Shown here piece by piece: positions 668 to 46,267 of a stretch of DNA of 64,000 bases. The translations under genes were made by a program, and so were the position numbers. The stretch spans positions 124,001-188,000 of the forward strand of contig JAPOXD010000023.1 of assembly GCA_026707285.1 (NCBI GenBank), written 5' to 3'. The first letter of the stretch is position 1, and each line of letters starts with the position of its first letter. Source of the stretch: Chloroflexota bacterium. GTDB lineage: Bacteria; Chloroflexota; UBA11872. The notes below the pieces were generated by a model that made no database searches, was not told the origin of the DNA, and saw only the letters and a list, made by a program, of their open reading frames with translations.

Positions 668-713
668 GCGGCACCCCCGGCGGGATTCGAACCCACGACC
701 GTCGGCTTAGAAG
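668..713 (-). repeat. Left attachment-site repeat: 3' part of tRNA-Arg(TCT)
   Basis: These 46 bases match 49319-49364, the anticodon loop through acceptor end of the intact tRNA-Arg on the minus strand. Homology stops inside the anticodon loop. To the right, the sequence changes to the conserved trailer of the HTH module instead of the tRNA 5' half. This is the expected distal attachment site of an element that recombines in the 3' half of the tRNA. Confidence 0.8.
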
Positions 714-822
714 AACCGCGGGAAAAACTGCCGCGTTTGAGCGACGCCAAACCTGTTACGGCATCGAGGCCGATTTACAGGCCGTTGCCCCTTTCTTGGA
801 GCAATGGCATGGGAATTCTACG
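714..822 (-). repeat. Conserved non-coding trailer of the HTH module, copy 1
   Basis: This stretch separates the tRNA fragment from the stop of the HTH gene. It is nearly identical to 14899-15007, with only a handful of differences, and recognisably similar to 36843-36950 and about 35205-35300. It contains GAGCGACGCCAAACC and a GGCC-gatttaca-GGCC inverted repeat. The non-coding stretch seems at least as well conserved as the gene beside it, which suggests a function in the DNA or RNA, such as an attachment-site arm, recombination-protein binding or a 3' UTR structure. Confidence 0.6.
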
Positions 823-1275
823 TTATTTCGCCGGTAATTCCGCCTGTGCCAGTGCCAAGAACTCGCGGGTCACGGCCTCTACCGCGGGTCGTCGATAGGC
901 GGCCCACAAGTGCTGGCGGCTACGCAGGCCCAGACGTGCTGCAATGGCGACCATCGGCTGCCCCTCGCAATAGAGATCCAGTGCCAGGATCTGTCGTGGC
1001 GTCAGCACCGCTGCGGCTCGCTCGGTGGCCTGCTGGAGTAGCGCTCGCGCCGCATGAACATCAGCAAAGGCGCTTCGTCGAAAGCGCTGGCGTGCCAGGC
1101 GTCTCACACCAGGAAGGCCAATCAGGGCCGAATCGAGTAGGCGATAGCCGTCCTCGTGGTGGCGTAAGGCGTCGTCGACCCAGCGGTAGTACGCCGCAAA
1201 CGACCGGCAACTGCGACGCGGAGCACGGTGAGGACTTGGCATCCCGACGAACGGCACGGTAGCGGCCTGAGCCAT
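823..1275 (-). CDS. Small HTH protein of the tRNA-linked repeat module, copy 1
   Basis: The product is 150 residues. It has a helical N-terminal part (RSFAAYYRWVDDALR, DGYRLLDSALIGLPGV) and a C-terminal segment, LTPRQILALDLYCEGQPMVA then IAARLGL, that reads as a helix-turn-helix of the sigma-70 region 4 or LuxR type. Close homologues lie at 15008-15474 (frameshifted) and 36951-37412. Each is followed at its 3' side by the same trailer and then by a tRNA 3'-half-like sequence. I do not recognise a named family. A DNA-binding role tied to integration, excision or control of the element is an inference from position. The start is uncertain because the first 20 or so residues differ between copies; the conserved part begins near RSFAAYY. 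Confidence 0.7.
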   Translation of the reverse strand: MAQAATVPFVGMPSPHRAPRRSCRSFAAYYRWVDDALRHHEDGYRLLDSALIGLPGVRRLARQRFRRSAFADVHAARALLQQATERAAAVLTPRQILALDLYCEGQPMVAIAARLGLRSRQHLWAAYRRPAVEAVTREFLALAQAELPAK

Positions 1276-1464
1276 TCGAATCCGAGGTGTGATCGGTCGG
1301 TATGCCCCAAGGGTGCCGGTACTTCGCCCTGCCCGGAAGACAGGATTCCGTATGCGCAGACAGCAGCCCGAAGTGCTGCTACAGCGTTATCGCGGCAGGC
1401 GCGGTAAGTTCGCAGACTCACGGTGCCGCAATATTCGTCAATGAATGTGACCGTAAGGTGGCGT

Positions 1465-1690
1465 GGCCACCGCCCCAGCCTGGATCGACAAGCCTCGGGA
1501 CCTCGCCCACGGCGCTGAGATTCAATTCGAACAAGCCCTCGCCCACCAGCTCGGCCCCGGAACCAGCGGACTCCCCGAATGCTGAACCTCATTTGCCGTC
1601 GTTGGATCCGCCACCACCGTCCGCCAAACCATCGACATCCAGAACCGCGAATTGGGCGAGCCCTACCTCCACCACATGGTCCTCGCCGCA
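1465..1690 (+). pseudogene. C-terminal remnant, possibly of a luciferase-like monooxygenase
   Basis: One frame reads [20 protein letters not shown], then an in-frame TGA near 1580, then [20 protein letters not shown] followed by [13 protein letters not shown] 'VGS-x-x-T-V' segment before a helix is typical of the C-terminal part of luciferase-like flavin monooxygenases. The frame is cut by the IS5 remnant that begins at about 1691. There is no N-terminal part and the stop interrupts it, so this is a dead fragment. The family call is tentative. Confidence 0.35.
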
Positions 1691-1970
1691 CGCAGGCCCG
1701 GGATCCCGCGATGCATCAGGTGAAAAAGGGCAACCGGTGGTACTTCGGGATGAGGGCGCACATCGGAGTGGACGCCGACACTGGGCTTGTGCACAGCGCG
1801 GCCACCGCGCCCCGGCCAAAGCGGGCGCAGTGTGCCCTGCGCGGGTACGACCGCGGCCCTACGCGCCCCATGACGGTCGGATCGAGCCGGCGCGTTGCCC
1901 CACGCGACGATCCCGGCCCCGCACCAACGTCTTGGCGCTAAGGTGCCCCATTTGTTCAGAGGCTTTCTAG
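1691..1970 (+). mobile_element. IS5-family remnant (internal piece plus right end)
   Basis: The translated sequence [20 protein letters not shown] matches the transposase of the full-length element at 16548-17734. The sequence then jumps directly to the last 160 or so bases of that element, including the stretch before the terminal repeat. The right end at 1955-1970 is a slightly diverged copy of the terminal inverted repeat, ending in CTAG. The catalytic core between these parts is deleted and no left end is visible, so the copy cannot move by itself. Confidence 0.75.
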
Positions 1971-2302
1971 TGTCCAACTCCAACTGCAAGGGTGTGCCTT
2001 GCCGAACTACTGGTCATGAATAGCCTGGTCGTTGGGTCGACGGAGGCGGACGAGGAACCGCCTGAGTGCGGGTCGTCCGAGCGCGTGAGGCGCGGGCGCC
2101 CCCTGCGCCAGCGGCTCGGACTCGGCACTGAGCAACGACTTGGCCTCGTAAAGGATCGATGTGGACCGGTCGCTGGGGATCGTGCGGCCAACGGGCGCTC
2201 ATTGAGTCTGCCGCTTTCCGGGCGCACCCCACGCTCGTTTTCGACCGCACCGTGCTATTTCTTTGGCTCTATTGCGGGGCTGCGGTCAGCTGGGGTCCGT
2301 AG
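1971..2302. other. Intergenic, no supported gene
   Basis: About 330 bases between the IS5 remnant and the methyltransferase stop. Open frames on both strands are arginine/serine/proline-rich with no recognisable motif, as expected by chance in GC-rich DNA. I see nothing further in it. Confidence 0.5.
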
Positions 2303-3163: not shown

Positions 3164-3223
3164 GCCCGTGTTCTCCCCTAGTCGTATTGAAGAATCGATT
3201 GCGGAGCCAGCAATTGCACACGG

Positions 3224-5023
3224 TCAATCGATTCCTGTGTCTGCAGGTCGAATGAACTGCAAGTCGCAGAGCCGCCGGTAGAGATCGCAGCGCTCGAAGA
3301 GCTCTTCGTGCCGGCCGGAATCGAGCACCCGGCCCTCGTCAAGCACGACGATCAAATCCGCGCGGCGCACGGTGGCGAGCCGGTGGGCAATGACGATGGT
3401 CGTGCGTCCCGCAGCTGCGCGCGCGAGCGCCTCCTGCACCAGCCGCTCTGACTCCGCATCGAGCGACGACGTAGCCTCGTCGAGGATGAGGATTCGCGGG
3501 TCGGCGAGGATCGCTCGGGCAATGGTCACCCGTTGGATCTGCCCACCCGACAGGCGCAAGCCACGCTCACCGAGGTGCGTCTGGTAGCCATCCTCAGTGT
3601 CGGTGATGAAGTCGTGCGCATTGGCGATCGTTGCGGCCTCGACGACTTGTGCGCTGCTGATGTCGTCCCGTCCGAGCCGGATGTTCTCCTCAATGGAGCC
3701 GTCAAAAAGCACGGGATCCTGAAACACCACGCCAAGCTGCGCCCGAACCGAAGAAGCGTCAACGCCGGCGACGTCAATCCCGTCGATGCGGATGCTTCCA
3801 CCGGTCGGCTCGTAGAACCGCAGCAGCAGGCTGGTGAGCGTGGTTTTGCCTGCGCCGCTGGGACCAACCAGCGCGACGGTTTTCCCGGGATTGGCCCGAA
3901 AGCTCACGTCGTGCAGCACCGGCTCGCCGTCAGCGTAGGCGAACGACACACGGTCAAAGCGAACTGCACCGTGATGACCGATGGGACCGGCCGAGGCTGT
4001 GGTTGGTGCCGGGTCGGGTCCAGAGTCGAGGAACCCGAAGACTCGGCGCGCAGCCCCGGCCGCAACTTGCATGTGGGCGAGGTCGGACACGGCATTGCCG
4101 ACCGGTGCCCCGAGCTGGAGCATGTACTGGCCGGCGGCGACGAGCAGCCCCAGTTGCACCGCTCCATCCACCACGGCGCCAGCGAGCACGGCCCAGATTG
4201 CGATGTAGATCCCCCAGTACACGAGGGTGGGCACCCATCGCACGCTTTCAACGAGCGACAGGCGGACCTGCGCCCGCCACAGCCCATCCGCCTCAGCACC
4301 GACACGCTCACCTGCCCACGTCTGGCGATTCGCGGCCTTGATGTCGCGCACACCCCCGACCATGTCGGTAAGCACGGCAGTGAGGCGGCCGACGGCATCC
4401 TGCACGCGCCCGCCGGCTGACCGGGTCGTGCCGCGAAGCCTCGTTGAAAGCAGCACGTGGATCGGCAGCGAACTGAGCGCGATGACGCCCAGGCGCCATT
4501 CGATGGCGAACATGATCGCCAGATAAGCCGGCAGTCGAAACGCTTGGGCGAACGCCAGGGAGACGAAGGCCAGGTAGACACGCCCGATCACCGTGGCGTC
4601 GGAGGTCAGGTGCGCCGCGATGTCGCCCGTCCGGTGGGCGCGGACATCGCTGAGCGGCATCCGCTGGGCGTGCTGGAGGACGTCCGTGCGAAGCCCGAGC
4701 ATCGCCCCCTGCGCCGCACGCTGGTGGGCCCAGAAGCCGACCGTCGCCGCAATGGCCATCGCGATGCCGACGGCGCCGATCGCGACCAGCACAGGCACCA
4801 GCAAGCCACGGTTCCCTTGCCCAAACACGTCGTCGATGATGAGGTGCAACAGCCACGGACGAACGATCCAGATCACCGAGTTGCCGAGTGTTGCCCCAAT
4901 GGCCACCGAGTAGTCCCAGGCGCTGGGCCGCATGTAGGCCCACAGACGCTTGGCCACATCCCAATCTGAATGCTCCGGTGTCAATTGACGCGCAACTTGA
5001 TCGGCCGGCAACGCGGTGCTCAT
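3224..5023 (-). CDS. ABC exporter, fused membrane and ATPase domains (array member 4)
   Basis: The product has 599 residues. Residues 30-300 hold six predicted membrane helices of an MsbA-type exporter domain. The ATPase domain follows: Walker A GPSGAGKT at 388-395, Q-loop VFQDP near 433, signature LSGGQ near 491, Walker B ILILDEA near 511 and H-loop AHR near 546. All catalytic positions are intact, so it should hydrolyse ATP. The start overlaps the previous gene's stop by 4 bp (ATGA), which points to translational coupling within an array of four homologous genes. Such half-transporters work as homo- or heterodimers and export lipids, drugs or peptides. The conserved Trp in YWGIY at residue 270 matters because the next gene has a stop there. 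Confidence 0.93.
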   Translation of the reverse strand: MSTALPADQVARQLTPEHSDWDVAKRLWAYMRPSAWDYSVAIGATLGNSVIWIVRPWLLHLIIDDVFGQGNRGLLVPVLVAIGAVGIAMAIAATVGFWAHQRAAQGAMLGLRTDVLQHAQRMPLSDVRAHRTGDIAAHLTSDATVIGRVYLAFVSLAFAQAFRLPAYLAIMFAIEWRLGVIALSSLPIHVLLSTRLRGTTRSAGGRVQDAVGRLTAVLTDMVGGVRDIKAANRQTWAGERVGAEADGLWRAQVRLSLVESVRWVPTLVYWGIYIAIWAVLAGAVVDGAVQLGLLVAAGQYMLQLGAPVGNAVSDLAHMQVAAGAARRVFGFLDSGPDPAPTTASAGPIGHHGAVRFDRVSFAYADGEPVLHDVSFRANPGKTVALVGPSGAGKTTLTSLLLRFYEPTGGSIRIDGIDVAGVDASSVRAQLGVVFQDPVLFDGSIEENIRLGRDDISSAQVVEAATIANAHDFITDTEDGYQTHLGERGLRLSGGQIQRVTIARAILADPRILILDEATSSLDAESERLVQEALARAAAGRTTIVIAHRLATVRRADLIVVLDEGRVLDSGRHEELFERCDLYRRLCDLQFIRPADTGID

Positions 5024-14852: not shown

Positions 14853-14898
14853 TGGTGGGCCGAGCGAGACTCGAACTAGGAAGCCAAGCGATTAGAAG
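14853..14898 (-). repeat. tRNA 3'-half-like fragment next to HTH module copy 2
   Basis: Read on the minus strand, this ends in CCCACCA and contains a TTCGAGTC T-loop and a CTTCTAA anticodon-loop-like segment, as at 668-713, but the stems are imperfect. It occupies the same place relative to the HTH module as the true tRNA-Arg piece does in copy 1, and homology between the two begins in the anticodon loop. It is most simply an attachment-site remnant from an earlier insertion. Confidence 0.5.
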
Positions 14899-15007
14899 AA
14901 CCGCGGGAAAAACTGCCGCGTTTGAGCGAGGCCAAACCTGTTACGGCATCGAGGCCGATTTACAGGCCGTTGCCCCCTTCTTGGAGCATTGGCATGGGAA
15001 TTCTACG
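14899..15007 (-). repeat. Conserved non-coding trailer of the HTH module, copy 2
   Basis: Almost identical to 714-822, with differences at only a few positions (for example GAGCGAGGCC for GAGCGACGCC). It joins the tRNA-like fragment to the stop of the HTH gene. Confidence 0.6.
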
Positions 15008-15474
15008 CTATTTCGAGGGAAATTCCGCCTGCGCCAGTGCCAGGAACTCGCGTGTTACGGCCTCCACCGCGGGTCGCCGATAGGCGGCCCACAGATGCTT
15101 GCGGCTTCGCACGCCTAGACGCGCCGCAATGGCGACCATTGGCTGGCCCCCGCAATAGAGATTCAGTGTCAGCACCTGCCGCGGCGTCAGCACTACTGAG
15201 GCTCGCTCGGTCGCCTGCTGGAGAAGCGCTCGCGCCGCATGCACATCAGCGAAAGCGCTCCGTCGAAAGCGCTCCGTCGAAAGCGCTGGCGTGCCAGGCG
15301 TCTCACTCCGGGAAGACCTAACAGGGCCGAATCGAGCAGGCGATAGCCATCCGAGCGGTGGCGTAAGGCGTCGTCCTCCCACCGGTAGTAGGCCGCGAAC
15401 GACCGCCGGCCGCGGCGCGGGGTGCGGTGCATTTGTGGTCGCCTTGCGGTTGGCAATGCGGCGGCCTCGGGCAT
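15008..15474 (-). pseudogene. HTH protein of the module, copy 2, frameshifted by a 14-bp duplication
   Basis: The N-terminal half (RRSFAAYYRWEDDALRHRSD onward) and the C-terminal HTH half (LTPRQVLTLNLYCGGQPMVA) are in different frames. The break is at 15257-15284, where 14 bases (GCTCCGTCGAAAGC) are present twice in tandem; copies 1 and 3 have them once. Removing one unit would restore a protein of about 150 residues collinear with the others. The change looks recent because the rest is well preserved. Confidence 0.75.
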
Positions 15475-19598: not shown

Positions 19599-19606
19599 CC
19601 CTTCAA

Positions 19607-22562: not shown

Positions 22563-24281
22563 GCTCTCGGAGCCGCGCACCCGCCTGACCGGCACCGGAC
22601 ACGCACGCCGTTTTCGCCGACGCTCTGGGGGCCTGCTGGCCATCCGCATCCGTCAACGGCCCGTGCCGCTCGCATGTCTGTGCGTCTGTGACTCGCGGCC
22701 GCGCCGGCCTGGGTTCAAGCTGGCTCGTGCCCCGATTGACCCGGAGCCGCTTAAGCGTCACGATCCAGTTGACGCGAGGGTGGCAACGTACCCCGCGCGC
22801 TGCCAGATTGGGGGCTGGCGATCGGCAGGGCTGTCGCGGGACCCGTGGACCGCGCCCGTCAAGTCGCGCATCCGGCGAGGTGATGCCGAGGCGTGAGGAC
22901 AGCCCGCCGGCTCGGCACGCCGCCCGCCGGTCAGAGCCACTGCCAGTTGTGACGACGCGGCCGCGTGGCCACCAAGTCTCCCGCGCAGAGGACTGGGCCA
23001 CTGGTAGTGACGGCGCCTTTTCGGCAGCCGCGCTTCGACTGGACTTGCCACATCTCGAGTCATGAGCGCCACACCAAGTCCCGGTAGGTCATACCAACCG
23101 CATCTCTCCGATTGGTCGCCGGTTGCCGTTCGTAGCCCATTGTCTGAACGCGCCCGGTCTCAACGACGGCCACACGGAAACGATTGGTCCCTCGGTCGTA
23201 GAAATCATTGCGGAACGCGACTCCACGATCTGACGTGAGCAAGCGGTCGGCAACCCAGGATTCCGCCTGTCGACATCGGAATTCCACCAGCGTCGCCCGT
23301 CGATATTGTTTCAGGTATCGACGACGAAAACCTGCGGGCCTGCTGCCCCCAGCTCTTGAGCGCCACCGCCAACAACCCGTCTTCGCGAGTGCAAGGGCGC
23401 GAACGCCCCGATCACCTGCCAGAGCACCTCGTAGTGCAGGCGGGGCGCTTCGCCCGGCGCCAGTAGCAGCAGGCGGATCCAGTTGAAGAACGACCCGATG
23501 GCCAGAGCCGCTTTCGGGTAGGCCAGGACGGCTCGCCCAAGCCGAGCCAACGTCGGAGAGTTGCCGCCGGTCTGTGCGTGCAGCCGCCCCAAATTCCCTG
23601 CCAGGGAGACGAGGATGGCCACTGCCGAAATGTTGTTCATCACGGCCCAACGCGCCCTAGTTCTCGTAGAGCGCACTGAATTGGTAATGCGCCAAGTAGG
23701 TCGCAGCATTCCCGAGAATCGGGCCGCCCGGCCCCCGCGACACCCACGGCATGCGCGTAGCCTGTCAGCTAGCGCCCGAGCTCGCGCACCCAGTAGTCAA
23801 CCGCAATGACCACCAGCGCCACCGCCAACACCATGCCCCACGAGGTCGTTAGGGGCCGAGACACCCGCAAGCATGTTTGTGACCTCGTCGATGAGCATGG
23901 ATCAGTGCCCAGGGCGTGCTCGCGCTTTCTGATGAAGCCGCTCAATCACCTCCCATAACCTGCGTCGGTCAGCGACGCGACGCTCCCGGCCTCGTCCACA
24001 TACTCTCGGACATGGAGCAACCGTTGGCCTTGGTGAAGTCCTTGAGCATCCCCAGCTGGCGGACACGGACAAGTTCACGCCCTGCCGGTAACTGGAATCC
24101 GTGGTGTCTAGGGTCTCCTATGAAAGCGGCTGTAGGTGCTTCTTCTGTTTAGTCAGTGTAGTGGCGGTTGCACCGGCAAAGGATAATGTGAACGCCTTGA
24201 CCGCAGGCGTGTCCGACCCCGTATCCATGATTTTTCACGCGAGTCACGGGATAGCCGAGACTCTAAGGAGAACTCCGCCTG
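22563..24281. other. Gene-poor stretch of 1.7 kb, probably decayed DNA
   Basis: No gene can be supported. At 23060-23650 two minus-strand frames look more protein-like than chance: one starts MNNISAVAILVSLAGN and contains ALAIGSFFNWIRLLLLAPGE, and the other ends with FRNDFYDRGTNRFRVAVVET. They would join by a frameshift near 23320. I do not recognise them; they may be a dead gene. The end of the stretch carries the AAGGAG ribosome-binding site (24265-24270) of the helicase gene. Confidence 0.4.
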
Positions 24282-27200
24282 GTGTCTAAGAGCAACGGAC
24301 GCCCCGCGATCCGATGCCTCTCACTTGACCTTGAAGTCGGCGTCCGAGACTCCCGCATCCACGCCTTCGCCGGTGTACGTTCCGACACCCGGCGGACCCT
24401 AATCGGCCCTAAGCGCACTGCCTTGGCCCGAGCACTGGTCCAGCTGGACCGCCTTGCCGATGGCGCTGACTTCATTCTCGGCCACAACCTGATCGCTTTC
24501 GATCTGCCCCACCTGCAAGCTGCGAGTCCCGGTTTGCGGCTGCTACGACTTCCCGCGGTGGACACGCTTCGACTCAATCCCTTGGCCTTTCCCCGCAACC
24601 CCTATCACCATCTTGTCAAGCACTATCAGGACGGAGGGCTCAGGCGCGGACGCATCAACGACCCTGAACTGGATTCCAGACTTGCCTTGGAGGTCTTCGA
24701 CGATCAGCTAAAGGCCCTGCGGGATTCACCGTCGGACTTGCTGACAGCCTGGCACTGGCTCACCACGTGTGATGGGGGCGAAGGATTCGGCCGGGTGTTC
24801 GCTTCGTTGAGGAACTCGCCGAGGCCGTCCGACGCTGAGGCGTTGGCGGCAATCCAGAGACGTTTGGCTGACTCATCCTGCCAGACGTGCGCTCGAGAGG
24901 TCATGGCGGACGCAACACAGAACGGCTGGGCACTGGCCTATGCGCTGTCGTGGCTGTCGGTGTCTGGAGGGAGCTCCGTCATGCCTCCTTGGGTGCGGCA
25001 TCAGTTTCCCGAGGCAGGTCGGCTGGTTAAACGATTGCGCGACAGCGCCTGCGCCGACCCCACGTGTGGTTGGTGCCGCGAGCGACACGATGCCCGCAAC
25101 GAGCTCACCCGGTGGTTCGGCTTTCCCGACTTCCGCGCCGAGCCATCGGACGAGAATGGACAGCCGATGCAGCGGTCAATCGTCGAGGCGGTCATGGCCC
25201 GGAAGCATGTGCTGGGCATCCTGCCAACCGGCGCGGGCAAGTCGCTCTGCTACCAGCTGCCGGCACTCTCCCGCTACGACAAGACCGGGGCGCTGACGGT
25301 TGTGATCTCGCCATTGGTCGCCCTCATGGCTGATCAAGTGGCGGGTCTCGAGGCTACGGGCATCGGCTCCTGCGTCACGATCAACGGGCTCCTTTCCATG
25401 CCTGAGCGAGCCGATGCGCTGGACCGGATACGACTTGGAGATGCCGGCATCGTCCTTGCGGCTCCTGAGCAGCTTCGTAGCGTCGCGTTTCGTCGCGCCC
25501 TTGACCAACGTGAGATCGGTGGGTGGGTGCTGGATGAGGCGCACTGCCTCTCGAAATGGGGGCACGACTTCCGGCCCGACTACCGGTACGTTGGGCGCTT
25601 CATCCGCGAGAAAGCGAGGGATGACCCGGTTCCGCCGGTCTTGTGCCTCACCGCGACCGCCAAGCCCGATGTGAAGACCGACATTGTCGAGTACTTCCAA
25701 GCGGAGCTGGACATCGACTTGACAGTTTTCGACGGCGGTGCTCGACGCGAGAATCTGGAGTTCGTCGTGGTGCCGACGAGCAGCGGGGCGAAGTTCGCCA
25801 ATGTCCACCAGATCCTCGACGCCGATCTGCCGGCGGATGATCCTGGCGGGTCAATCGTCTATTGCGCCACACGGCGGCACGCCGAAGAGCTAGCCGCGTT
25901 CCTCCAGGCCAAAGGCGTAACAGCCGACCACTTCCATTCGGGCCTGCCCCCGGAGACCAAGAAGAACGTCCAGGAGCGCTTCATCCGTGGCGATCTGCGA
26001 GCCATCGTCGCCACCAATGCCTTCGGCATGGGCATCGACAAGCCTGACGTTCGCCTGGTCATTCACGCCGATATCCCCGGCTCCCTCGAGAACTATCTGC
26101 AAGAGGCAGGCCGCGCTGGAAGGGACCAGCAACGGGCGCGCTGTGTATTGCTCTATACCCAAGACGATGTGGAGCGCCAGTTCGGGATGTCGGCCCGTTC
26201 CCGGCTGACGCGGCGTGAGATTCATGGTGTATTGCGAGCACTGCGAAACCTGGACCGTAAGAGGCGCCTGGATGGCCAAGTTGAGGCCACTGCCGGCGAG
26301 ATTCTCGGCGAGGACGAAGAGAAGGCCTTCGAGCGAGACTCCAACACCGACGACTCCCGGGTACGGACGGCCGTCGCCTGGCTGGAGGAGGCGGTGTTGC
26401 TCACCCGGGAGGAGAACCGGGTGCAGGTGTTTCCATCCTCGCTACGGGTCAACTCGGTAGAGGAGGCACGGGCCAGGCTCGAACGGTCCGACATCAGGAG
26501 CGGCTATCGCCGCCAACTACTGACCATCGCGGAGACGTTGTTCGAGGCGGATGCGGACGACGGAATCTCCACAGACGAGCTCATGGCGGCAACGGGTCTG
26601 ACCTCCACCGGGGTCAGGGGCGCACTGTACGACCTAGAGCGATTGGGGGTCGCCAGCAACGACACGGCGCTGACGGCCTTTGTTCACACGGGTGTGATGC
26701 GTGCCTCACAGCGACGCTTCACGCAGGCGGCGGCTCTGGAGATCGACCTGGTGGCCCACCTGCGCGAGACAGCGCCAGATCTGAGCATCGGCGATTCATC
26801 GACGCTCCATCTCCGCGTCGCCACCCAACGGCTCAAGGACGAGGGGCATTCGCACGCTCTACCGGAACACCTGTGGCGCATTGTGCAGAGCATCGCCGCC
26901 GACGGGCGTGGGGAGGGCGGCGGTGGCGGCAGCTTCGGCGTACGCCGGTGGGACGCCGAGACCGTACAGGTGACGCTGCACCGCGAGTGGGGCGTGTTGG
27001 AGAGGATTGCCGAGCTACGTCGCGCCGCGGCACGGCGCCTGCTCGACCATCTACTCGCCACCCTCCCGCAAGGAATCCGAGGCACCGACCTTCTAGCGGA
27101 GACGACCCTTGGCAAGCTGCTGGCGGCAGTCCAGTCCGATCTCGTGCTGAGAAGCGTAGTCAAGGACCCGGCAAAGCTGATGGAGCGTGCCTTGCTGTGG

Positions 27201-29405
27201 TTGCACGAGCAGGAGGTCATTCGCCTGAACAAAGGCCTGGCGGTGTTCCGCCCAGCCATGACCATCCACCTGAAGCCTGAATCACGCGGCTTCGCACAGG
27301 CCGATTTCGGAGCCCTCAAGCTCCATTACGACGAGCAGGTGTTGCAGATCCACGTGATGGCGGAATACGCGCGGCAAGGCCTTGCTTCGATGGCTGATGC
27401 CCTGCGCCTAGCGATGGACTACTTTGCCCTTAGCGAAGAGGAATTCCTGCATCGCTGGTTACCGAATCGGGAGACGGAGACTTCCCGGCAGACCACGCCA
27501 GAATCGTGGCGGGCTGTCGTTGAATCCCTCAACAACCCCATCCAACGCCGCATCGTGGCCGACGATCGGGAGCAGACCAATGTCCTAGTTCTTGCCGGTC
27601 CAGGCTCGGGCAAGACGCGGGTGTTAGTGCACCGCATTGCCTACCTGTTGCGGGTGAGGCGAGAGAATCCTCGCGGCATCCTCGCGCTGGCCTACAACCG
27701 GCACGCCGCGGTGGAGATCCGCCGCCGTCTGGCGGACCTCATTGGCGACGACGCTCGGGGCGTTACGGTGTTCACCTGCCACGCCCTGGCCATGCGGTTG
27801 GTCGGGGCCAGTTTCTCGGGACGGGCGAAGCGTCTGAACGAGGAAGACTTCCAGGACGTCCTGCGACAGGCGACGGCCCTGCTGCGCGGGGAAGGCCTGC
27901 CACCGGACGAGGCGAACGAGAATCGGGCGCGTTTGCTGGCGGGTTTCCGCTGGATCCTCGTCGACGAGTACCAGGACATCGGCTTGGATCAGTACGAGCT
28001 GATCTCCGCCCTGGCGGGCAGAACCCTCGCCGAGGAGGACGACAAGCTCAGCCTCTTCGCCGTGGGCGACGATGACCAGAACATTTACGCCTTCAACGGC
28101 TCGTCGGTGGAGTTCATCCGGCGCTTCGAAGCCGACTACCGGGCCAAGCCCGCGTTCCTGACCGACAACTATCGTTCAACTAGCCATGTCGTCGCGGCTG
28201 CCAACGCAGTGATCGGACCGGCCCGGCATCGGATGAAGACCGGGCACCCCATCGCCATCAACCGAGGCCGAGCCAAGGAACCATCGGGCGGTGCCTGGGC
28301 CGAGCTAGACCCAGTGGCTCGAGGAAGAGTTCAGATTCTGCCGGTTGGCGACAATCGCATCGCTCAGGCGCAGGCGGTCGTTGCAGAGCTCGAGCGGTTA
28401 TCCAGGCTCACTCCCGATTGGAATTGGGCGACATGCGCGGTGGTGGCGCGGAACTGGAGCTACCTGGACCCGGTGCGCAGCCTCTGCGAGCTTCAAGGCA
28501 TCCCCGTTGAGATGGCGAACGAGGAGTTCTCGGGTTTCTGGCACTTGCGGGAGACCGGAGCACTCCGAGATTGGCTCTATGGGCGAGATTCCCAATGGGT
28601 GCGGAGCGGAGACCTGGCCCACTGGCTGCGTACGCAACCGCGAGGGCCGTGGGTCAAGCTCCTCGAGGAAGCCGTCGCCGACTTTGGACTGGAGACCGGC
28701 GGCGCCGAAACGTCGCTGGATTCCTTCATTGAATGGTTGGCCGAGTGGGGCCAAGAGTTTCGTCGTCGGCAGGGAGGATTGCTGCTGACGACCGCCCACC
28801 GCGCCAAGGGCCTGGAGTTCGACCACGTGGTCGTGCTGGATGGCGCGTGGGACCGCATCGGCCGCGGAGAGGATCGAGACGCCCCCCGGCGGTTGTACTA
28901 CGTAGCGATGACTCGGGCACGTCAGACGCTTACCCTCATGCGCTTTGCCGGACAACATCCTTTCCTGGATGGCTTCCAGAAGAACTCCTCGGTGCTACAC
29001 CGCCCGGCGTCGGTCGGACTCCCGGTCCCGTCGAGCGAGCTCAACCGCACCTATCGGCGGCTCAGCCTAGGGGATGTCTTTCTAAGCTTTGCCGGGTACA
29101 GGATCCCTGGCAACCCAGTGCACGAGGCCATAGCCGCGCTCTCTCCTGGCGACATTCTCCAGGTTCGAGAGGGGTCGAATCGCTGGGAACTCCTGGACAG
29201 CAAAGGCACCGTCGTCGGACAGCTTGCTCGGAGTTTCACGCCCCCCGCTGACATGCACTGCGCGTTCGCCACCGTCTTGGCCATCGCCACTTGGGACCGT
29301 GAGCGCTCTGATCCCCAGTACCGCGAAGGGCTTCTAAGTGATAGCTGGGAGGTAGCGGTGCCGGAATTGGTGTTTGAGCCGGAGCCCCCCAATGTGCCGG
29401 AATAG
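24282..29405 (+). CDS. Exonuclease-RecQ-UvrD fusion helicase
   Basis: The product is a single protein of 1707 residues from GTG 24282 (AAGGAG 11 bases upstream). Residues 10-140 look like a DnaQ-type 3'-5' exonuclease: LSLDLEVG (Asp16, Glu18), [13 protein letters not shown] (Asp74) and INDPELDSR (Asp131). Residues 290-650 are a RecQ helicase: [12 protein letters not shown] near 312, [17 protein letters not shown] near 416 and [13 protein letters not shown] middle region of 400 residues holds winged-helix-like segments. From about 1085 comes a UvrD/Rep helicase: [20 protein letters not shown] near 1226, [27 protein letters not shown] near 1505 and [12 protein letters not shown]. All ATPase motifs look intact. 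Two 3'-5' helicase engines and a nuclease in one chain suggest processing of DNA ends, perhaps against invading DNA given the neighbours. Confidence 0.93.
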
Positions 29406-29627: not shown

Positions 29628-32600
29628 CTAGTCCGGGAGAACTAGGCTAAAGCTAAGGTTTCCTTCTGGTGCTTGACCTGCGTGTCTAAATGCGCCCGAT
29701 ATCTTCAAATGCCCTTGAAACTCTGATCGAGCCCCGCCGACAATCCACTTTTCTCCAAAAACGACCCAGCAGAGGACCAGCCCGTTTTGCCTTAGGTACC
29801 GCTCTAGCAGCTCCCTATCCATGAGTAGGGTAGTTGGGCCATCATCATGCGCCGTCGGATCATAGATGGCCAGCCTACCTGATTTGTCCACAAAATCCGA
29901 GGCCCTCCCCGACCAATTCAGATCAAGGTCGTCAAGGAGTACATGATGAGGCAAGAGCAGTGTGTAGTGCTCGTCGACAGAGCAATCGAACACGCCTGAT
30001 TCTGCAGAATAGGAGACTGTCGAAGTCCGTACGTCGACCGGACGCCTCTCTCCTTCCGATTTTGCCCAACCCTCAGTGCTATTGTGGTTCGGGAATTGAC
30101 GACGAAATGCCGGAGACCAACCATATTCTCCGAAGAACATATAGTAGAGATATACTGTCGGGGATTCTGGTAGCGCGTCCAACTGATTTTCATTCCTCTT
30201 GGCCCAGCTCACAAATGAGTCAACATCACTAGAGTGGACGAAATAGGCCTCCCATCGCAGCATGAGCTCTCTCCGCTCAATCTTGAAGGGATCGACATCT
30301 ACAGGATGTGGCTGCCTCCAGACTGCGTTACCGCACAAGTTGACCCATTGGCTTCCGTCGTTGGGACGAACGACTTGAAGCAGATCTTCAACTCTCGGAA
30401 TATCTGTCTCCAATGCTAACCACTCCTGATGGCTCACCTCATCACGCCAAGCAGCATATTCAGCGTCTCCCCACCACGCAGCCTTGTGCGGTCCCCAAGA
30501 CGTTCCGCCGGGAGTGGAACTTAGAGTTGAGGACGGATCGATATCGCGGACATGGAGTTGCCAAGGTCCCTCGTACTTGCCACCCTCGTCGCCAAAAAAA
30601 GACTGCTGGTACTGGTAGTGGTCCGAAAGGTGAGCGAGTATCTCATGGTAGGCTATCCACTGGTACTTCTTTCCCATTCGCTCAGGCTTGTTCGCCGATC
30701 TCCCAGGATCTCCGATGAAGAACCGGTCGAACTCACCAAATCGATCAATTGTCCAACCTAGATCAAATACGCGCCAGAATACATATCGCTGGATCGCGCG
30801 TACATCAAATCGCGGAGGGCCACTGCTCCTAGCATGATCGATTGCTTCCATCTCAGACCTCTGGTCGTCGGTAAGCATCGACATCAGTTCTTGCCGTGAG
30901 GCCTCGATCCGCTCTTCGTGCCGATCCATATCTCTACTGAGTTCCTGCTGTTCAGCATCGCCGTCGGACTGTGTATCTCCCATCATCGCAAAAATTGGCG
31001 ACGGTTCGTTTTCAATGCTTCTGAGACTCGCATACGCCGCTCTTTCGGCATCGCCAAGCTTGTCCAATAGGTCCTCTATCCGCTCTTCCGGCGAGACCCA
31101 CTGGGCTTCGTCGAGTCGAAGTGAGAGCCAGCAACTATTAGATTCACTGCCGATCACGTACCGGGAGAAATCGCTAAGCAGATCACCTAATACCGAATGA
31201 CGAATTCGGTTCCTCGACCACTCCAAATCGCCATCTACCCATGCACCTTGATTCCAGTGTGGAGTCAATTGCTCAATTATCTCTTCACCTGGTATGTCTG
31301 GCCAGATGCTTCTATACGGCGGCCGTATGAGTGAGTCGTTGACAGGGATTTCTGCCCCAAGATAGATTGCACGCTCGACAACTCCACGGGCGTAATCACG
31401 GAGGAGAATATGCGGCGGGCAGTCGCCAGAGGCAAAGACCCGATCGTATACCAACAATGCCAGCTTGCCCACCGCATCCGCGTCGTGACTTCGCATTGCC
31501 ACACCATAAGCTACAGCATGCACTCGTTCGGAGACATATGGATCGTCAACGTCGGCGAAACGGTTCACTAGTCGCCCAGCCGATTCGAACCGCCCAGTGA
31601 GGAGAACAACCAAAGCCTTCGTCGCCCTATCGCGCAAGAATCGGTTGGGTGTCGTAAGCATCCAAGAAAGCGTGGTTGCAGCTAGGTCTACAACCTCATC
31701 CTCAATGTCTTCATCTCCTGCCGAGCTCAATGCCCAATCTATGAGGCGGTCCACAGGACTCTGGTTCTGCCACGCTCTGTGCAGATAGGTGCTCCACCAT
31801 GAATCCCGATCAGGCATTGCATCCTCGCGCAATCGGCGGTCAAGAGTCTCTGCGTTGAATGGATGACCGGAAATGGTTGAGAGAGACACCATCGTGTCCA
31901 AGAAATCTTCCAATAGATCGTCATCCCCCAACAAGTCGTCCAAGATCACATCAAAGTCTTTCGAGAAGGCGTCATGCTTACGCCAGATGATGCTTTGCAG
32001 AAAAGCATAGGTGAACATGGGTCGTTTCCGCACGGATGGAGCCACACTGACCAACTCTTGCCCGATACGCTCAGGCACCTGAATACATAGCGCCTCAATG
32101 ATCCCATACCGTATATACCGCTCCTCTTGGCTAAGGAGAGCCATTCCTCCATTCTCTGAGAATGCAATGCTGGGATCATCTCGGTCGAGATGAGTATTGA
32201 GCAGGTGGTCAGAAATGATGTGGTCCGCGAAGCGATCATAGACGATCGTCACTACCTCGTCCGTGAGAACGCCGCTACTCGGGTCAATATCTTCCGCAAG
32301 TATGCCTTCAGCTACAAGGGCTGCATAGAGCGACTCATCGTAATTCCGGCCCGGCAGCAGATTATCTACGGCGGCCTGAGCCTCGGAGCGACGCAGGTGT
32401 GGCGTTCCACACTCCGCAAACCGCTCAGCAAGCCTCTCAAGGGATTGACGTACAAGGTTATTCTTCGGGTCATAGTTGAGATACTCTGGCTTCCGAAGAC
32501 GCTCGTGAATCGCATTGAGGTAGAGGTCGAATACCGCACTGACACCATGGAATCCTCTCGGAAGCTGGCGCTCTCCTTTGCCTTGCAGACCTTCACAGAT

Positions 32601-34184
32601 CGCCTTTAGAAAAAGCGGATTGCTGAATTCAGGCTGCAAGATTGGAGTTGACGGAGCTTGGAGTCCATAATGTGCAAAGAAAATACGGGTGGCGTCGAAC
32701 TCAAGCCCCGCGAATCCCTGGTGAGTAACGACGGTAGCCCTGTCCCTCACATTCTTCGGGATGATTGTCTCCTCGTACGACGAGCGGACGGAAAGGACCA
32801 CCCCAATCCACGGAGATTCTTGGATCCTCGCCAAGAATGAGGGCAGATGAGCCGGCCAAATCCTCCTGCCATTACCTTCGTTCAAGGCATCAATCATCAC
32901 CATTGCGCGACACGCCGACGCCTGGGCGGCGGATTCCAGCGCACCGACAAACTCTTCCGCGCTGCTGTGGGACAAGTCCAGTTGCTGTAACAGCTGTACC
33001 CAAGGATCGTCCGCGCTGAGGAATCGTTTGCCCACCAGGACTAGAGTAGGCAGCTGATCTTCAACACGCCTCTTAGCGAAATCACAGATCAGGTGAGTTT
33101 TGCCTGTACCACCATCGCCCTTCAAAAGCAACAGCTGATTGTTCGCCAAAGAATCGACATGAGTACAAACATCAATTACTCGACCTAAAGCAATTTGAAG
33201 CTGCTGTACGTAGGCAAGCATGTTTTTGAGGGGCTCCACAAAATAGCCCGATGTATCTGGGATGTCTTCAGGCCGCGCACTCTTGTACGTTCGTAGTTGC
33301 GAGATTTTCTCAAGAACCTGCGTTCCTTCATTACACGCCTTATCTGCCGCATTCACTATCTCTGGGAGTCGCATATGGCCAGCAGGACATGCTTCCAACT
33401 GCGCCAAGGCTTCCAGCACCTTGCTCGTTGCGCTTGCTAGACAATCAAGCTCTAGGTCTTGAGCCTGTTGGTCCGCGGATCTCTGGACAAACACTAAGCT
33501 GTCATGAGCTCTACGAATTCCTAGTGAAAGAGACTTGACTTCTTCGAAGGAAGAAGATGACCTACTGAATCGCTTCAAGTCCTGAGCGATGGGTAAGTCG
33601 ACATGGACCTCCGGAGTGTATCTGGGTCCGACGGCGCTCAGAGACTCATTGAGATGCCGACTAAACCAGTCCTGACTAAACTCATGCTGTCCAAACCAGA
33701 AGAAACGGCGCCCAGAGTGCTCCTCCCGGGACAGCCTATCAAGCAATTCCGAGGAGCCCCACCGCACATACTCCACCTCAATATCGCGTTCCTTCGCCTG
33801 TCTTTCCCACTTGCATAGATGGTCGTCCCATCGATCCATTTCCGAGTTTCGGTTGGAAATGCGGGCATCCGATAGATTGCGAGGGACGCAAACATAATAG
33901 CGCACTAAGCGGGGATGTTTGTTGAGTGCGGTTTCGATTGAGACGTCAAGTTGCTGCCATTGGATGCTCGTAAGAGGCGAGGTAAAATACTTCGCCTGCC
34001 AACCCCACTCATCCCCGTTCGGGAGAACACAGTAGCATTCGACACCTGCATCGGGAGTGCCGGTCGATATGAACTTCGCATCTTTGGGAGACTCAACACG
34101 CGCCAGTTGTACACACAGCTCCTCAAACCCGCCGGATTGCGAGCCATTCCATGATCGGATCGATTTCCAGTCAACGTTGAACAC
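29628..34184 (-). CDS. Avs-like STAND NTPase with N-terminal Mrr-type nuclease
   Basis: The product has 1518 residues from GTG 34184 (GGGA 7 bases upstream). Residues 15-70 form a restriction-endonuclease-like core: GFEELCVQLA, then GTPDAGVE and WGWQAKYF, giving a D...QxK active site (about Asp45, Gln63, Lys65). A linker of about 250 residues leads to a P-loop NTPase: LLLLKGDGGTGKTHLICDFA near 354 and MVMIDALNEG near 428. The remaining 1000 residues have no named domain and are helical, as in the target-sensing C-terminus of antiviral STAND (Avs) proteins. Those sense phage terminase or portal proteins and then activate the nuclease to kill the infected cell. The order and length fit the Avs plan. 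GC content is lower than in the core genes, consistent with transfer. Confidence 0.83.
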   Translation of the reverse strand: MFNVDWKSIRSWNGSQSGGFEELCVQLARVESPKDAKFISTGTPDAGVECYCVLPNGDEWGWQAKYFTSPLTSIQWQQLDVSIETALNKHPRLVRYYVCVPRNLSDARISNRNSEMDRWDDHLCKWERQAKERDIEVEYVRWGSSELLDRLSREEHSGRRFFWFGQHEFSQDWFSRHLNESLSAVGPRYTPEVHVDLPIAQDLKRFSRSSSSFEEVKSLSLGIRRAHDSLVFVQRSADQQAQDLELDCLASATSKVLEALAQLEACPAGHMRLPEIVNAADKACNEGTQVLEKISQLRTYKSARPEDIPDTSGYFVEPLKNMLAYVQQLQIALGRVIDVCTHVDSLANNQLLLLKGDGGTGKTHLICDFAKRRVEDQLPTLVLVGKRFLSADDPWVQLLQQLDLSHSSAEEFVGALESAAQASACRAMVMIDALNEGNGRRIWPAHLPSFLARIQESPWIGVVLSVRSSYEETIIPKNVRDRATVVTHQGFAGLEFDATRIFFAHYGLQAPSTPILQPEFSNPLFLKAICEGLQGKGERQLPRGFHGVSAVFDLYLNAIHERLRKPEYLNYDPKNNLVRQSLERLAERFAECGTPHLRRSEAQAAVDNLLPGRNYDESLYAALVAEGILAEDIDPSSGVLTDEVVTIVYDRFADHIISDHLLNTHLDRDDPSIAFSENGGMALLSQEERYIRYGIIEALCIQVPERIGQELVSVAPSVRKRPMFTYAFLQSIIWRKHDAFSKDFDVILDDLLGDDDLLEDFLDTMVSLSTISGHPFNAETLDRRLREDAMPDRDSWWSTYLHRAWQNQSPVDRLIDWALSSAGDEDIEDEVVDLAATTLSWMLTTPNRFLRDRATKALVVLLTGRFESAGRLVNRFADVDDPYVSERVHAVAYGVAMRSHDADAVGKLALLVYDRVFASGDCPPHILLRDYARGVVERAIYLGAEIPVNDSLIRPPYRSIWPDIPGEEIIEQLTPHWNQGAWVDGDLEWSRNRIRHSVLGDLLSDFSRYVIGSESNSCWLSLRLDEAQWVSPEERIEDLLDKLGDAERAAYASLRSIENEPSPIFAMMGDTQSDGDAEQQELSRDMDRHEERIEASRQELMSMLTDDQRSEMEAIDHARSSGPPRFDVRAIQRYVFWRVFDLGWTIDRFGEFDRFFIGDPGRSANKPERMGKKYQWIAYHEILAHLSDHYQYQQSFFGDEGGKYEGPWQLHVRDIDPSSTLSSTPGGTSWGPHKAAWWGDAEYAAWRDEVSHQEWLALETDIPRVEDLLQVVRPNDGSQWVNLCGNAVWRQPHPVDVDPFKIERRELMLRWEAYFVHSSDVDSFVSWAKRNENQLDALPESPTVYLYYMFFGEYGWSPAFRRQFPNHNSTEGWAKSEGERRPVDVRTSTVSYSAESGVFDCSVDEHYTLLLPHHVLLDDLDLNWSGRASDFVDKSGRLAIYDPTAHDDGPTTLLMDRELLERYLRQNGLVLCWVVFGEKWIVGGARSEFQGHLKISGAFRHAGQAPEGNLSFSLVLPD

Positions 34185-35173: not shown

Positions 35174-35204
35174 GGCACGCCCCTGGTGGCAGACGGGCGG
35201 ACTA

Positions 35205-35300
35205 GAAAAAAAACCACGCGCACACGCGCCGCTTCTGAGCGACGCCAAACCCACTGTGTCTCTGGAGTCTATCTGTAGGCCGTATCTACCCTCACTCGGC
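35205..35300 (-). repeat. Solo, diverged copy of the HTH-module trailer
   Basis: This aligns with 714-800: an ACTAGAA-AAACCACGCG segment for TTAGAAGAACCGCGG, then GAGCGACGCCAAACC exactly, then TCTGTAGGCCGT for TTTACAGGCCGT. No HTH gene follows. It lies between the decayed HerA-like gene and the HEPN/MNT pair and may be a scar of a lost module. Confidence 0.5.
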
Positions 35301-35474
35301 GACGGCAAGGGAGGAGCGGGCTAGGCCAAATTCAGACACACAGTGCTCACGCGGCGAACCGTCGCGTCCTCGACGAACGGACGTCGAGGCAAGTACGACG
35401 TGCGACGGGAGCCATGTCGGTGCATGTGCCGCTACACTCAGGGTAGAGGACGGCACGGCCCACGAATCGGCAGA

Positions 35475-35852
35475 ATGACGCAGACTGCCCAGGAATCGCT
35501 CCACCTCGCTCTGCTTCACCTCGACCGAGTGCAGTCGGCGTGGTGGGACCCGACAGATTGGGCGAATCTTTCGACTTACGGCTTCTACTGCTTGGAAGCC
35601 TGCGTTGTCGCGGCCGCGCTGCATTTGAAGCAGCCCCGTCCCGGAAGCCACCCTGCCAAGGCAAGGATGGCTGAATCCCTGAGTCAGGAGCACAACCTGC
35701 CTGATATCGGCGAATTGCTCGTCGACTTGAATACGATGCGCAAACACCAGGCATATGGGGACACCCAGGCTCCTGAGGGAATGGACGCGGAGAACACCGC
35801 AAGACTGATCGAGGAGTACGTCACCTCGGTGCAAGCCTTATTTGCGATATGA
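35475..35852 (+). CDS. HEPN-domain protein (putative toxin of a HEPN/MNT pair)
   Basis: The product has 125 residues from ATG 35475 and is all-helical by appearance. The central part YGFYCLEACVVAAALHLKQP and the late segment LLVDLNTMRKHQAYGD have the layout of HEPN proteins, where the last helix usually carries R-x4-6-H; here that position reads RKHQAYGD, so the canonical RNase pair is not fully preserved. Its stop overlaps the start of the nucleotidyltransferase gene (ATGA). HEPN toxins in such pairs cut RNA and are neutralised by AMPylation from the MNT partner. Whether this variant is an active RNase is uncertain. Confidence 0.75.
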   Translation: MTQTAQESLHLALLHLDRVQSAWWDPTDWANLSTYGFYCLEACVVAAALHLKQPRPGSHPAKARMAESLSQEHNLPDIGELLVDLNTMRKHQAYGDTQAPEGMDAENTARLIEEYVTSVQALFAI

Positions 35853-36517
35853 CGCAGCGGCTCACCCCGGAGCGATCTGTGCACCGACAGGAAGACTCCA
35901 TTGTGACCCTGGAAGCCGTGCGGTCCTGGCCGAGCAGCGGGGCACGCCAGTGGACGATCGACGCTGTAGCTGTAGCCATTCACCACTCAGCAATTCGGGC
36001 GATCGTCGCCTCCGGTTCATGCGTGCGTGACGTGGCGAATTGCGACGATCTCGACCTCGTGCTCGTGTACCGTAAGTGTCGGCCCACTCTTCCGCGTCCA
36101 CCGATCGGTGTCGATCTCCAGCAACATGAGGTGGCCGAGGTGCCACAGAAGCTAGAAGGGGGCCACGATTTTCTCTCGTGGGCAGTTCGCTTCGGGCGAC
36201 CATTGTTTGAGCGCGACCGGTGGTGGTCGCGTCTGCGAGCCGACTGGAATGATCGACTGTCATTGCCTTCGGCCGCCGAAGCCCGCAAGCGTGCGCGCCG
36301 CGCGCAGCAGCTTCATCAAGAGATGCAGGCGCTCGGCGATCACGACGCCGCAATGGAGAACTATGTCTCAATGTTGACCCACCTCGCGCGAGCAGCGTTG
36401 AGCGACGCGGGCATCGTGCCCTGGTCGAGGCCGGAACTCGCGCACCAGCTGCGCGGCATCGGTGAGCAGTTGCTGGCAGACCGCCTGGATGACGCACTGG
36501 CCCGCCGATACGGGTGA
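35849..36517 (+). CDS. MNT-type nucleotidyltransferase (putative antitoxin of the HEPN pair)
   Basis: The product has 222 residues from ATG 35849. The minimal nucleotidyltransferase motif is visible: IVASGSCVRDVANCDDLDLV, with Gly-Ser followed by Asp-x-Asp, and a third acidic residue may be in IGVDLQQHE. The C-terminal 100 residues are helical and charged. MNT proteins of HEPN/MNT toxin-antitoxin systems AMPylate the toxin. It is translationally coupled to the HEPN gene, in the usual toxin-first order. Confidence 0.75.
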   Translation: MTQRLTPERSVHRQEDSIVTLEAVRSWPSSGARQWTIDAVAVAIHHSAIRAIVASGSCVRDVANCDDLDLVLVYRKCRPTLPRPPIGVDLQQHEVAEVPQKLEGGHDFLSWAVRFGRPLFERDRWWSRLRADWNDRLSLPSAAEARKRARRAQQLHQEMQALGDHDAAMENYVSMLTHLARAALSDAGIVPWSRPELAHQLRGIGEQLLADRLDDALARRYG

Positions 36518-36791
36518 GGGACAGCTACCGGCTCCGCGTCGTCGGTGAACGTGAATTCGATGTTGCAATTTCCCAAGACAGACGCGGCCAACGCCTGTCG
36601 GGCATCGCAATTCTGCCGAATCGCTCCCCGCGCTCCGAACTGTGCTTCCGCGTCGCGACCAGCATTGAGACGCCGGTACGGCGCATGCATTCGGCACAGG
36701 ATGAGGATACGGGGGTCGATTACACGAGCGAGCGTCCGCTCCAAGTCAGATCCTGGCGCCGGCAAACAGGTTTGGGACGGTTGCCCACTAC

Positions 36792-36842
36792 TGGTCAGGA
36801 GCGACCGGCCAGAATTCGAACCGGCGACCCACGGCTTTGAAG
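36792..36842 (-). repeat. tRNA 3'-half-like fragment next to HTH module copy 3
   Basis: On the minus strand it reads as an anticodon-loop-like CTTCAAA, the arm GCCGTGGGTCGCC, a GGTTCGAATT T-loop with one extra base, and ends near TGACCA. It resembles the 3' half of a tRNA that differs from tRNA-Arg(TCT). It stands where the tRNA-Arg piece stands in copy 1. Confidence 0.5.
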
Positions 36843-36950
36843 AAATGCGCGGAGGCGCGCCGTATTTGGCCGATGCTCAACCTGTTCCGGTACCGGAGCC
36901 GTTTTCAGGCCGTTGCCCCCTTCCATGGGCAACGGCACGGACGTTCTACG
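36843..36950 (-). repeat. Conserved non-coding trailer of the HTH module, copy 3 (diverged)
   Basis: Similar to 714-822, with shared blocks CAACCTGTT, CAGGCCGTTGCCCC and TTCTACGTTATTTCG, but more diverged at the tRNA side. It joins the tRNA-like fragment to the stop of the HTH gene. Confidence 0.55.
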
Positions 36951-37412
36951 TTATTTCGAGGGAGATTCCGCCTGTGCCAGTGCCAGAAACTCGCGCGTCA
37001 CAGCCTCGACCGCTGGTCGTCGATAGGCGGCCCAGAGATGTTGGCGACTACGCAGACCGAGACGAGCTGCGATGGCGGCCATCGGCTGGCCCTCGCAGTA
37101 CAACTGAAGAGCCAGGACTTGCCGCGGCGTCAAGATCATCGACGCCCGCTCGGTGGCCTGCTGGAGAAGTGCCCGTGCCGCATGCACGTCGGCGAAGGCG
37201 CTTCGTCGAAAGCGCTGGCGTGCCAGGCGCTTTACTCCAGGAAGGCCTACCAAGGCCGAATCGAGCAGGCGATAGCCGTCCGCTCGATGGCGCAAGGCGT
37301 CGTCAACCCACCGGTAGTACGCCGCGAATGACCGGCGACCGCGGCGCGGGACTCGGTGGTGTGCATATCCCCGCTCCAAGATTGATGGGGCGGAAGCTTC
37401 CGGCATCCGCAA
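36951..37412 (-). CDS. Small HTH protein of the tRNA-linked repeat module, copy 3
   Basis: The product has 153 residues and is intact. It has the same layout as copy 1: variable first 25 residues, then RRSFAAYYRWVDDALRHRAD, FRRSAFADVHAARALLQQAT and the HTH segment LTPRQVLALQLYCEGQPMAA then IAARLGLRSRQHLWAAYRR. Differences from copy 1 are scattered conservative changes (IL/VL, D/Q, V/A), as expected if the protein is under selection. Its position between a tRNA-like fragment and the ApeA-like gene repeats the layout at the island's left end. The function is unknown; see copy 1. Confidence 0.72.
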   Translation of the reverse strand: MRMPEASAPSILERGYAHHRVPRRGRRSFAAYYRWVDDALRHRADGYRLLDSALVGLPGVKRLARQRFRRSAFADVHAARALLQQATERASMILTPRQVLALQLYCEGQPMAAIAARLGLRSRQHLWAAYRRPAVEAVTREFLALAQAESPSK

Positions 37413-46254: not shown

Positions 46255-46267
46255 GCATGAATTCGCC

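Follow-up and report, generated by a model that had tools for sequence, protein, structure and literature searches.

Background

In integrons a tyrosine recombinase heads an array of units that share a recombination tag. An array that is likewise headed by a tyrosine recombinase is present in a stretch of 64,000 nucleotides of Chloroflexota DNA (hereafter the window; GenBank assembly GCA_026707285.1, contig JAPOXD010000023.1, positions 124,001 to 188,000, or G000:C14:124001-188000 in our set, where G000 is a genome of 3.2 Mb in 61 contigs). Here, however, the units are about 2-22 kb long, each ends in a gene for a small helix-turn-helix (HTH) protein, many are decaying, and an attC-like covarying fold is lacking. 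The HTH gene, the conserved trailer of about 110 bp behind it and a short attachment (att) core form a module that runs into a tRNA-like 3' half. We consider it probable that these modules are the attR ends of tandem, mostly decayed integrative elements at a tRNA-Arg gene, and that the HTH protein is the partner of the integrase.

That islands accrete in tandem is already known (PMC3146451, PMC5704250). The ssrA-specific islands of Dehalococcoides follow one another behind a single RNA gene, whose 3' repeat bounds each of them; an integration module is present in 16 of the 31 islands, and the 15 without it have been proposed as possible cis-mobilizable elements (PMC3146451). The arrays described here are alike in phylum, in tandem stacking and in the occurrence of islands without an integration module. 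The Dehalococcoides account, in the parts cited, nevertheless concerns serine recombinases that act at transfer-messenger RNA (tmRNA) and a six-gene module beside attL, whereas here a tyrosine integrase is found with the anticodon loop of tRNA-Arg, and the HTH gene and an att arm lie at the opposite end (PMC3146451). The same succession of integration, decay to relics bounded by attL and attR, and further integration has been described for integrative and conjugative elements (ICE), integrative and mobilizable elements (IME) and cis-mobilizable elements (CIME) of streptococci and other bacteria; the passages drawn on here describe no conserved HTH end gene (PMC5704250). In ICEKp1 the integrase gene (int) is reported to switch upon excision from the tRNA promoter to a promoter at the 3' end of the element, and a state-dependent int promoter is named for ICEclc and ICEEc1 as well (PMC13023037). 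There, too, int lies beside a tRNA gene and the 3' end comes to stand upstream of int only in the circle, but that end holds a promoter, whereas here it is occupied by a gene and an arm. This state-dependent transcription of int provides a precedent for a pairing of HTH and int in the circle (PMC13023037). Our literature search, chiefly outside subscription papers, found no description of this HTH family or of the split layout.

Results

Array and integration target in the window

Three module copies had been placed by an earlier note on this DNA at 708-1275, 14892-15474 and 36835-37412, in one orientation, and all were found there, with the HTH genes on the minus strand (Table 1). Read along that strand, the order is tRNA-Arg(TCT), integrase, cargo, copy 3, cargo with a relic trailer, copy 2, cargo, copy 1 and a displaced tRNA 3' half. 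The integrase adjoins the intact tRNA-Arg(TCT), and because the 44-bp 3' half of this tRNA recurs at 670-713, the island can be delimited to approximately 670-49321. Copy 1 adjoins that repeat and thus sits, as had been proposed, at the distal end of the island. The further proposal that each trailer runs into a tRNA-like 3' half at the anticodon loop applies to all copies, but the true tRNA-Arg(TCT) half is found only behind copy 1, those behind copies 2 and 3 differing from this tRNA. The solo trailer suspected near 35205 is real, but it is only a partial trailer of 43 nt. It was missed by blastn (E<=1e-3, two reference trailers as queries); its local score reaches 61 with the best-matching of the 33 trailers and 38 with a set of four reference trailers, and with these same four the maximum over 840 background tiles is 31. 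A DNA search of the whole genome with copy 1 returned the window copies at 100, 86 and 81% identity, together with a 157-bp fragment on contig C10. In copy 2, HTH residues 1-70 and 55-150 match in different frames.

The integrase is designated Xer-like and probably starts at the conserved ATG at 49237; its start context is of the CCATGC(A/G)A type and follows the left arm. Its best NCBIfam matches are XerA, XerC and XerD, all below cut-offs. The two models for an integron integrase (IntI) gave 63.7 and 34.6 bits, versus cut-offs of 265 and 435.

Uninterrupted sites are present in three relatives (G010, G008:C26 and G009), which have an intact tRNA and a continuous flank where G012 has a filled site; the sequence past the G012 array is the one that directly follows the intact tRNA in these three. 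This comparison, which concerns genomes of the sister genus, is clean. In G008 the array is on a different contig (C35) from the empty site (C26).

Table 1. Features of the array in the window
Feature	Position	Strand	Remarks
Distal array end, formed by the displaced tRNA-Arg(TCT) 3' half (anticodon loop onward; core 707-713)	670..713	-	44/44 identical to tRNA nt 32-75
Trailer of copy 1	714..822	-	
HTH gene copy 1, intact	823..1275	-	open frame 150 aa
tRNA-like 3' half behind copy 2	14853..14891	-	39 bp identical to one in G005
Att core CTTCTAA of copy 2	14892..14898	-	
Trailer of copy 2	14899..15007	-	
HTH gene copy 2, frame-shifted pseudogene	15008..15474	-	
Partial trailer standing alone, relic of another unit boundary	35209..35251	-	
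Unit B left end: tRNA-like 3' half and arm site CCAAACCTGTT at +60, without integrase	36764..36835	-	
Att core CTTCAAA of copy 3	36836..36842	-	
Copy 3 trailer (putative right att arm), which diverges most among the three	36843..36950	-	
HTH gene copy 3, intact; right end of integrase-bearing unit A (36836-49321)	36951..37412	-	open frame 153 aa
Xer-like tyrosine integrase, open frame	48161..49309	-	PF00589 4e-36
Possible second left arm site CAGGCCGTG, inverted copy also in trailer	49255..49263	-	
Left att arm site CCAAACCTGTTA, +60 from core (predicted)	49286..49297	-	
Intact tRNA-Arg(TCT), integration target, array head	49321..49395	-	ARAGORN; gene 75/75 identical in five related genomes

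Arrays in the family

The Arg-type module was found in seven of the 19 genomes searched of one Chloroflexota family (G000, G002, G005, G007, G008, G011 and G012), and its recurrence in six genomes besides that of the window is beyond chance. At the 33 trailer/core junctions mapped in these seven genomes, conservation of the trailer extends to a CTTCTAA-like core at the anticodon loop, and there the similarity ends; past the core lies a 3' half of tRNA-Arg proper, a tRNA-like 3' half of another kind or unrelated DNA. Both ends are seen in three arrays (G000, G011:C65 and G012:C175), each of three full units, to which G000 adds its relic. All three have the order tRNA-integrase...HTH-trailer...tRNA 3' half, and G007:C70, a contig that starts within the integrase, is a single-unit example. 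Within the Arg family the module thus indeed lies at the end opposite the integrase, as had been anticipated. The units are tandem and att-bounded, the inner ones without integrase; the exceptions, both in G008:C35, are an inner unit with an integrase and another with a relic of one. Together with the array ends that match empty sites in relatives, this agrees with the suggestion that the other copies are the ends of earlier insertions and that the region is an accretion of islands.

Trailer and attachment arms

In 33 of 34 junctions the distance from the start of an AACAGGT-type site to the end of the core is 51 nt; the 34 include one doubtful junction (G008C35 13862) dropped from the trailer set (33 of 34 kept). 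The presence of the motif is partly due to selection, because the junction pattern required an AACAGGT-like motif within a spacing range; the identical spacing within that range is not explained in this way. The trailer site is an inverted copy of CCAAACCTGTTA, the motif on the integrase side. The inverse site (CCAAACCTGTT or a near variant) is present at +60 in all six head left ends that are followed by an integrase (G000:C14, G005:C2, G008:C35, G011:C65, G012:C175 and G000:C45), as well as in the inner, integrase-bearing left end G008C35_24363. Among the left ends of the 34 junctions, five reach 8 of 11 at +60 (other offsets: mean 0.03, maximum 1): two are inner and integrase-less (window unit B and G008C35_16239), one bears an integrase, in another the integrase is decayed, and the fifth is a distal flank (G002). 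Since a motif at a fixed distance in the trailer recurs inverted on the integrase side, the trailer looks like an att arm, the role that the earlier note had given it, and trailer and left arm together fit an attP with arm-type sites. By analogy with known tyrosine integrases, the integrase would bind to these sites.

Could the trailer instead be a structured RNA or a terminator? It contains inverted repeats, the consensus fold of 24 of the 33 trailers has an energy of -17.7 kcal/mol, and there is one terminator-like match at 745-730, though such matches are no commoner than in shuffles. In that same fold, however, not one of the 19 pairs was changed on both sides, and the z-scores of three trailers folded singly were only -1.2 to -1.6. 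RNA structure, for which a fold of the aligned trailers had been suggested as a test, is therefore not supported, and we reject it as the main explanation of the trailer; that the trailer is a structured RNA or a terminator is very improbable. As far as tested, the trailer is a DNA element and not an RNA.

Recent duplication, too, was rejected as the sole cause of the similarity between trailers, a concern raised earlier. The trailers of copy 1 and of the G005 head copy are 96% identical despite a synonymous divergence (dS) of 0.51 between their HTH genes, and between two genera the median identity is 76% (216 ungapped pairs, range 47-85%) despite a dS of 0.96-1.28 for the head HTH genes. The trailers thus evolve more slowly than the synonymous sites of the HTH gene. 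The trailer of copy 3, the head copy of the window, is 47-58% identical to other head trailers in ungapped comparison, owing to a one-base shift.

Two other kinds of left end were noted. In one class (L025 ~10896, L043 ~6921 and L035 ~2113) a palindrome-like GAACCT...AGGTTC block, in one member GAGCCT...AGGCTC, stands behind the tRNA-like 3' half. Left ends of the 'GACGACGCGAAG' type occur in three genomes; two open frames were scanned, and neither matched a Pfam family.

Integrity of the HTH gene

The HTH gene is under purifying selection: the ratio of non-synonymous to synonymous substitution rates (dN/dS) is 0.03-0.24, with a median of 0.09, over 66 pairs from 12 of the 16 open copies. A copy was counted as open when 129 or more of the 150 residues lie in an open frame. 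By this measure the gene is open in 16 of 33 units, comprising all six integrase-bearing head units (G000, G005, G007:C70, G008, G011 and G012) and 10 of the 27 others (Fisher p = 0.007), among which is one inner G008 unit that has both an integrase and an open HTH gene. The six head units differ from the six head left ends, as G007:C70 lacks a left end and G000:C45 a right end.

These counts bear on the idea of an integron-like array, in which the units would be cassettes shuffled in trans by the resident integrase and HTH gene, trailer and core their common recombination tag. The presence of up to six trailers on one contig (G012:C65) would suit such a system, as would the small size of some units (2-3 kb), the trailers being more uniform than the left ends and certain left-end types being common to several genomes. 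However, the HTH gene is broken in 17 of the 33 units and in none of the six head units, the arm site is missing from most inner left ends, and the 24 folded trailers contain no covarying attC-type hairpin. We consider shuffling of this kind unlikely. Little credence can likewise be given to the more far-reaching proposal that the arrays are working tRNA-anchored cassette systems, whose head integrase would move integrase-less units in trans via the HTH-trailer-core tag, and in which the HTH protein would represent a new class of att-bound directionality factors, diversified with the tRNA target.

Relatives of the HTH protein

The HTH protein passes no curated cut-off in Pfam or NCBIfam, and matches in PHROGs, which has no curated cut-off, are weak only. 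The AlphaFold model, from an alignment of 11 rows, has a mean predicted local distance difference test (pLDDT) score of 60 and is fair only in the C-terminal HTH region; Foldseek found nothing for it at E <= 0.001, and a profile search of PDB sequences nothing below E 0.018. No relative was found in the viral contigs searched. A search of genome contigs gave 8 loci, all in metagenome-assembled genomes of Chloroflexota/Chloroflexi, whose bin names might hint at an origin in sponges. Of 41 genomes of the class, 10 gave a match to a profile of 15 diverse members, and these 10 are all among the 19 of this family. An Arg-clade profile matched in 39 of 400 genomes of the phylum. Eight of these belong to this family; in the remaining 31 the matches are weak (E 1e-8 to 9e-4), and 29 of them fall in long frames, one of which (L080) reads as a membrane protein with a weak GAF match.

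A tree of 26 HTH proteins has four clades (Arg, Gly, LeuA and LeuB) with three label changes, the smallest possible number, and a support of 90/93 for LeuA; the match between clade and tRNA target is partly by construction, because three rows, two of Gly (G003 and G005) and one of LeuA, were labelled by sequence, without a visible att site. At six of eight Gly loci a tRNA-Gly 3' half follows downstream in the same orientation. The core lies 313-389 nt from the stop codon at five of these (the half of G010 being degenerate) and, by eye, about 15 nt after it in G011:C45; the remaining two (G003 and G005) have other DNA downstream and no att site or integrase nearby. Five of five Gly trailers contain the arm motif, in the orientation opposite to that of Arg trailers, and a conserved TATAAT-like block occurs about 135 bp before the core in five. 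By their coordinates, six of the seven LeuA loci lie downstream of an integrase at a distance of 228-269 bp, and each of these six integrases is preceded by a tRNA-Leu 3' half, whole or partial; the seventh locus (G003:C31:258743), unlike these, is 2.6 kb from its integrase. LeuA left ends show, by eye, variants of the arm motif. Four of seven LeuB loci lie 273-326 bp from the T-loop of a tRNA-Leu, convergently, and three have neither att site nor integrase nearby. The same is true of decayed LeuA-like fragments (G012:C171, G011:C9 and G011:C46) and of Arg fragments (G000:C10 and G012:C65 at 41.5 kb). Weak matches at 34.8 kb in G011:C46, in G011:C72 and in G009:C60 (where the search for a T-loop found none) were left out of the placement. 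The expectation that homologues lie at tRNA genes or island ends thus holds for most loci, which are found at tRNA 3' halves or beside an integrase in four clades and at three tRNA genes, but the expected distance of about 150 bp fails for most of the Gly clade and for the loci without an att site nearby.

The HTH gene might also be ordinary cargo, or encode a host transcription factor, that is found near island ends by chance. The protein does show weak likeness, below cut-offs, to the HTHs of LuxR and sigma-70 region 4, and it weakly resembles the C-terminal portion of a sensor-like membrane protein from a different Chloroflexota family. Yet most loci of all four clades stand at an att site or integrase, and the intactness of the gene goes with a head integrase, so that a chance neighbour is improbable.

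One contig combines two clades: in G012:C65 (L107, L038, L039 and L064) six Arg-type trailers are flanked on one side by an integrase that follows a tRNA-Gly 3' part (positions 234-1154) and on the other by an HTH gene of the Gly clade with a tRNA-Gly 3' half at ~111-112 kb.

Discussion

Proposed mechanism

In the reading that we prefer, the Xer-like tyrosine integrase would recombine the attP of an element with the anticodon loop of tRNA-Arg(TCT). The incoming element would supply its own tRNA 3' half and push the old half outward. Repeated insertion would stack the elements, with the newest, which carries the integrase, at the tRNA, while older ones, having lost theirs, would decay to relics bounded by att sites. 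In the predicted excised circle the HTH gene, the trailer of ~110 bp, the core, a left arm of ~120 bp and the integrase gene would follow each other, all codirectional, and trailer and left arm would bear the same arm-type site, inverted. Integration would split the HTH-int pair to opposite ends of the island and circularisation would bring the HTH gene next to int. A tandem junction in G008 shows this order physically, with an HTH fragment, the trailer (24249-24362, oriented coordinates), core, tRNA 3' half and an integrase from 24442. On the basis of linkage and selection we favour the HTH protein as partner of the integrase, which may act either as a recombination directionality factor at the arms or as an activator of int from the 3' end of the element in the circle.

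Several observations weigh against this reading. In clades LeuA and LeuB the HTH gene lies on the same side as the integrase or tRNA, so that the distal placement, and with it the earlier suggestion of a position opposite the integrase, is not universal. In the genus of the window 1-3.5 kb beside the tRNA are variable, and a clean empty site is therefore lacking there. The seven carrier genomes are fragmented (10-210 contigs), and the array heads of G005:C2, G000:C45 and G002:C11 adjoin other genes instead of an intact tRNA. In G008 the head integrase, with 350 aa open and a Pfam match in two parts, is shorter than at the other heads. Many inner left ends lack the arm site and several any tRNA-like sequence, while the possible second arm site CAGGCCGT is exact in three of six head left ends, has two mismatches in two and is absent in one. 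The search pattern for junctions was itself trailer-like, which introduces a bias to similar trailers and narrow spacing. Finally, promoter scans of copy 1 and of one Gly trailer yielded no passing sigma-70 promoter.

By eye, the heads of G005:C2 and G000:C45 (L103 ~600-900; L111 ~3560-3830) lie directly behind an M23-peptidase-like gene, and their flank is 100% identical between both genomes over 1181 bp.

Cargo and implications

Several cargo genes were noted in the stacked islands of the window. A 1518-aa protein (29628-34184, minus strand) matches the Avs2 model over nearly its whole length (E = 0), and consecutive DprA-like, HAD hydrolase and phosphoribosyltransferase genes (18513-21198, plus strand) resemble defence of the ShosTA/PsyrTA type. 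A 1707-aa protein (24282-29405, plus strand) has DpdF-like and UvrD/GajB-like helicase parts, and the integrase-bearing unit encodes a 1580-aa type ISP/IIG restriction-modification enzyme (40143-44885, minus strand). From copy 3 to the solo trailer, two small overlapping genes (35343-36517, plus strand) look by eye like a HEPN/nucleotidyltransferase toxin-antitoxin pair; they matched nothing in Pfam (E<=0.01) or PADLOC.

The signature of HTH gene, arm motif AAACCTGTTA and anticodon-loop core allows the ends of islands to be read in uncultured Chloroflexota, integrase-less relics included. It also defines a family of att-linked HTH proteins that is over no curated cut-off in the libraries searched and whose clades go with different tRNA targets. 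The split layout predicts that HTH and int are joined only in the excised circle. Because the islands of the window carry Avs2-like, PsyrTA/ShosTA-like, DpdF-like and restriction-modification genes, such stacked islands may serve these bacteria as a store of defence genes.

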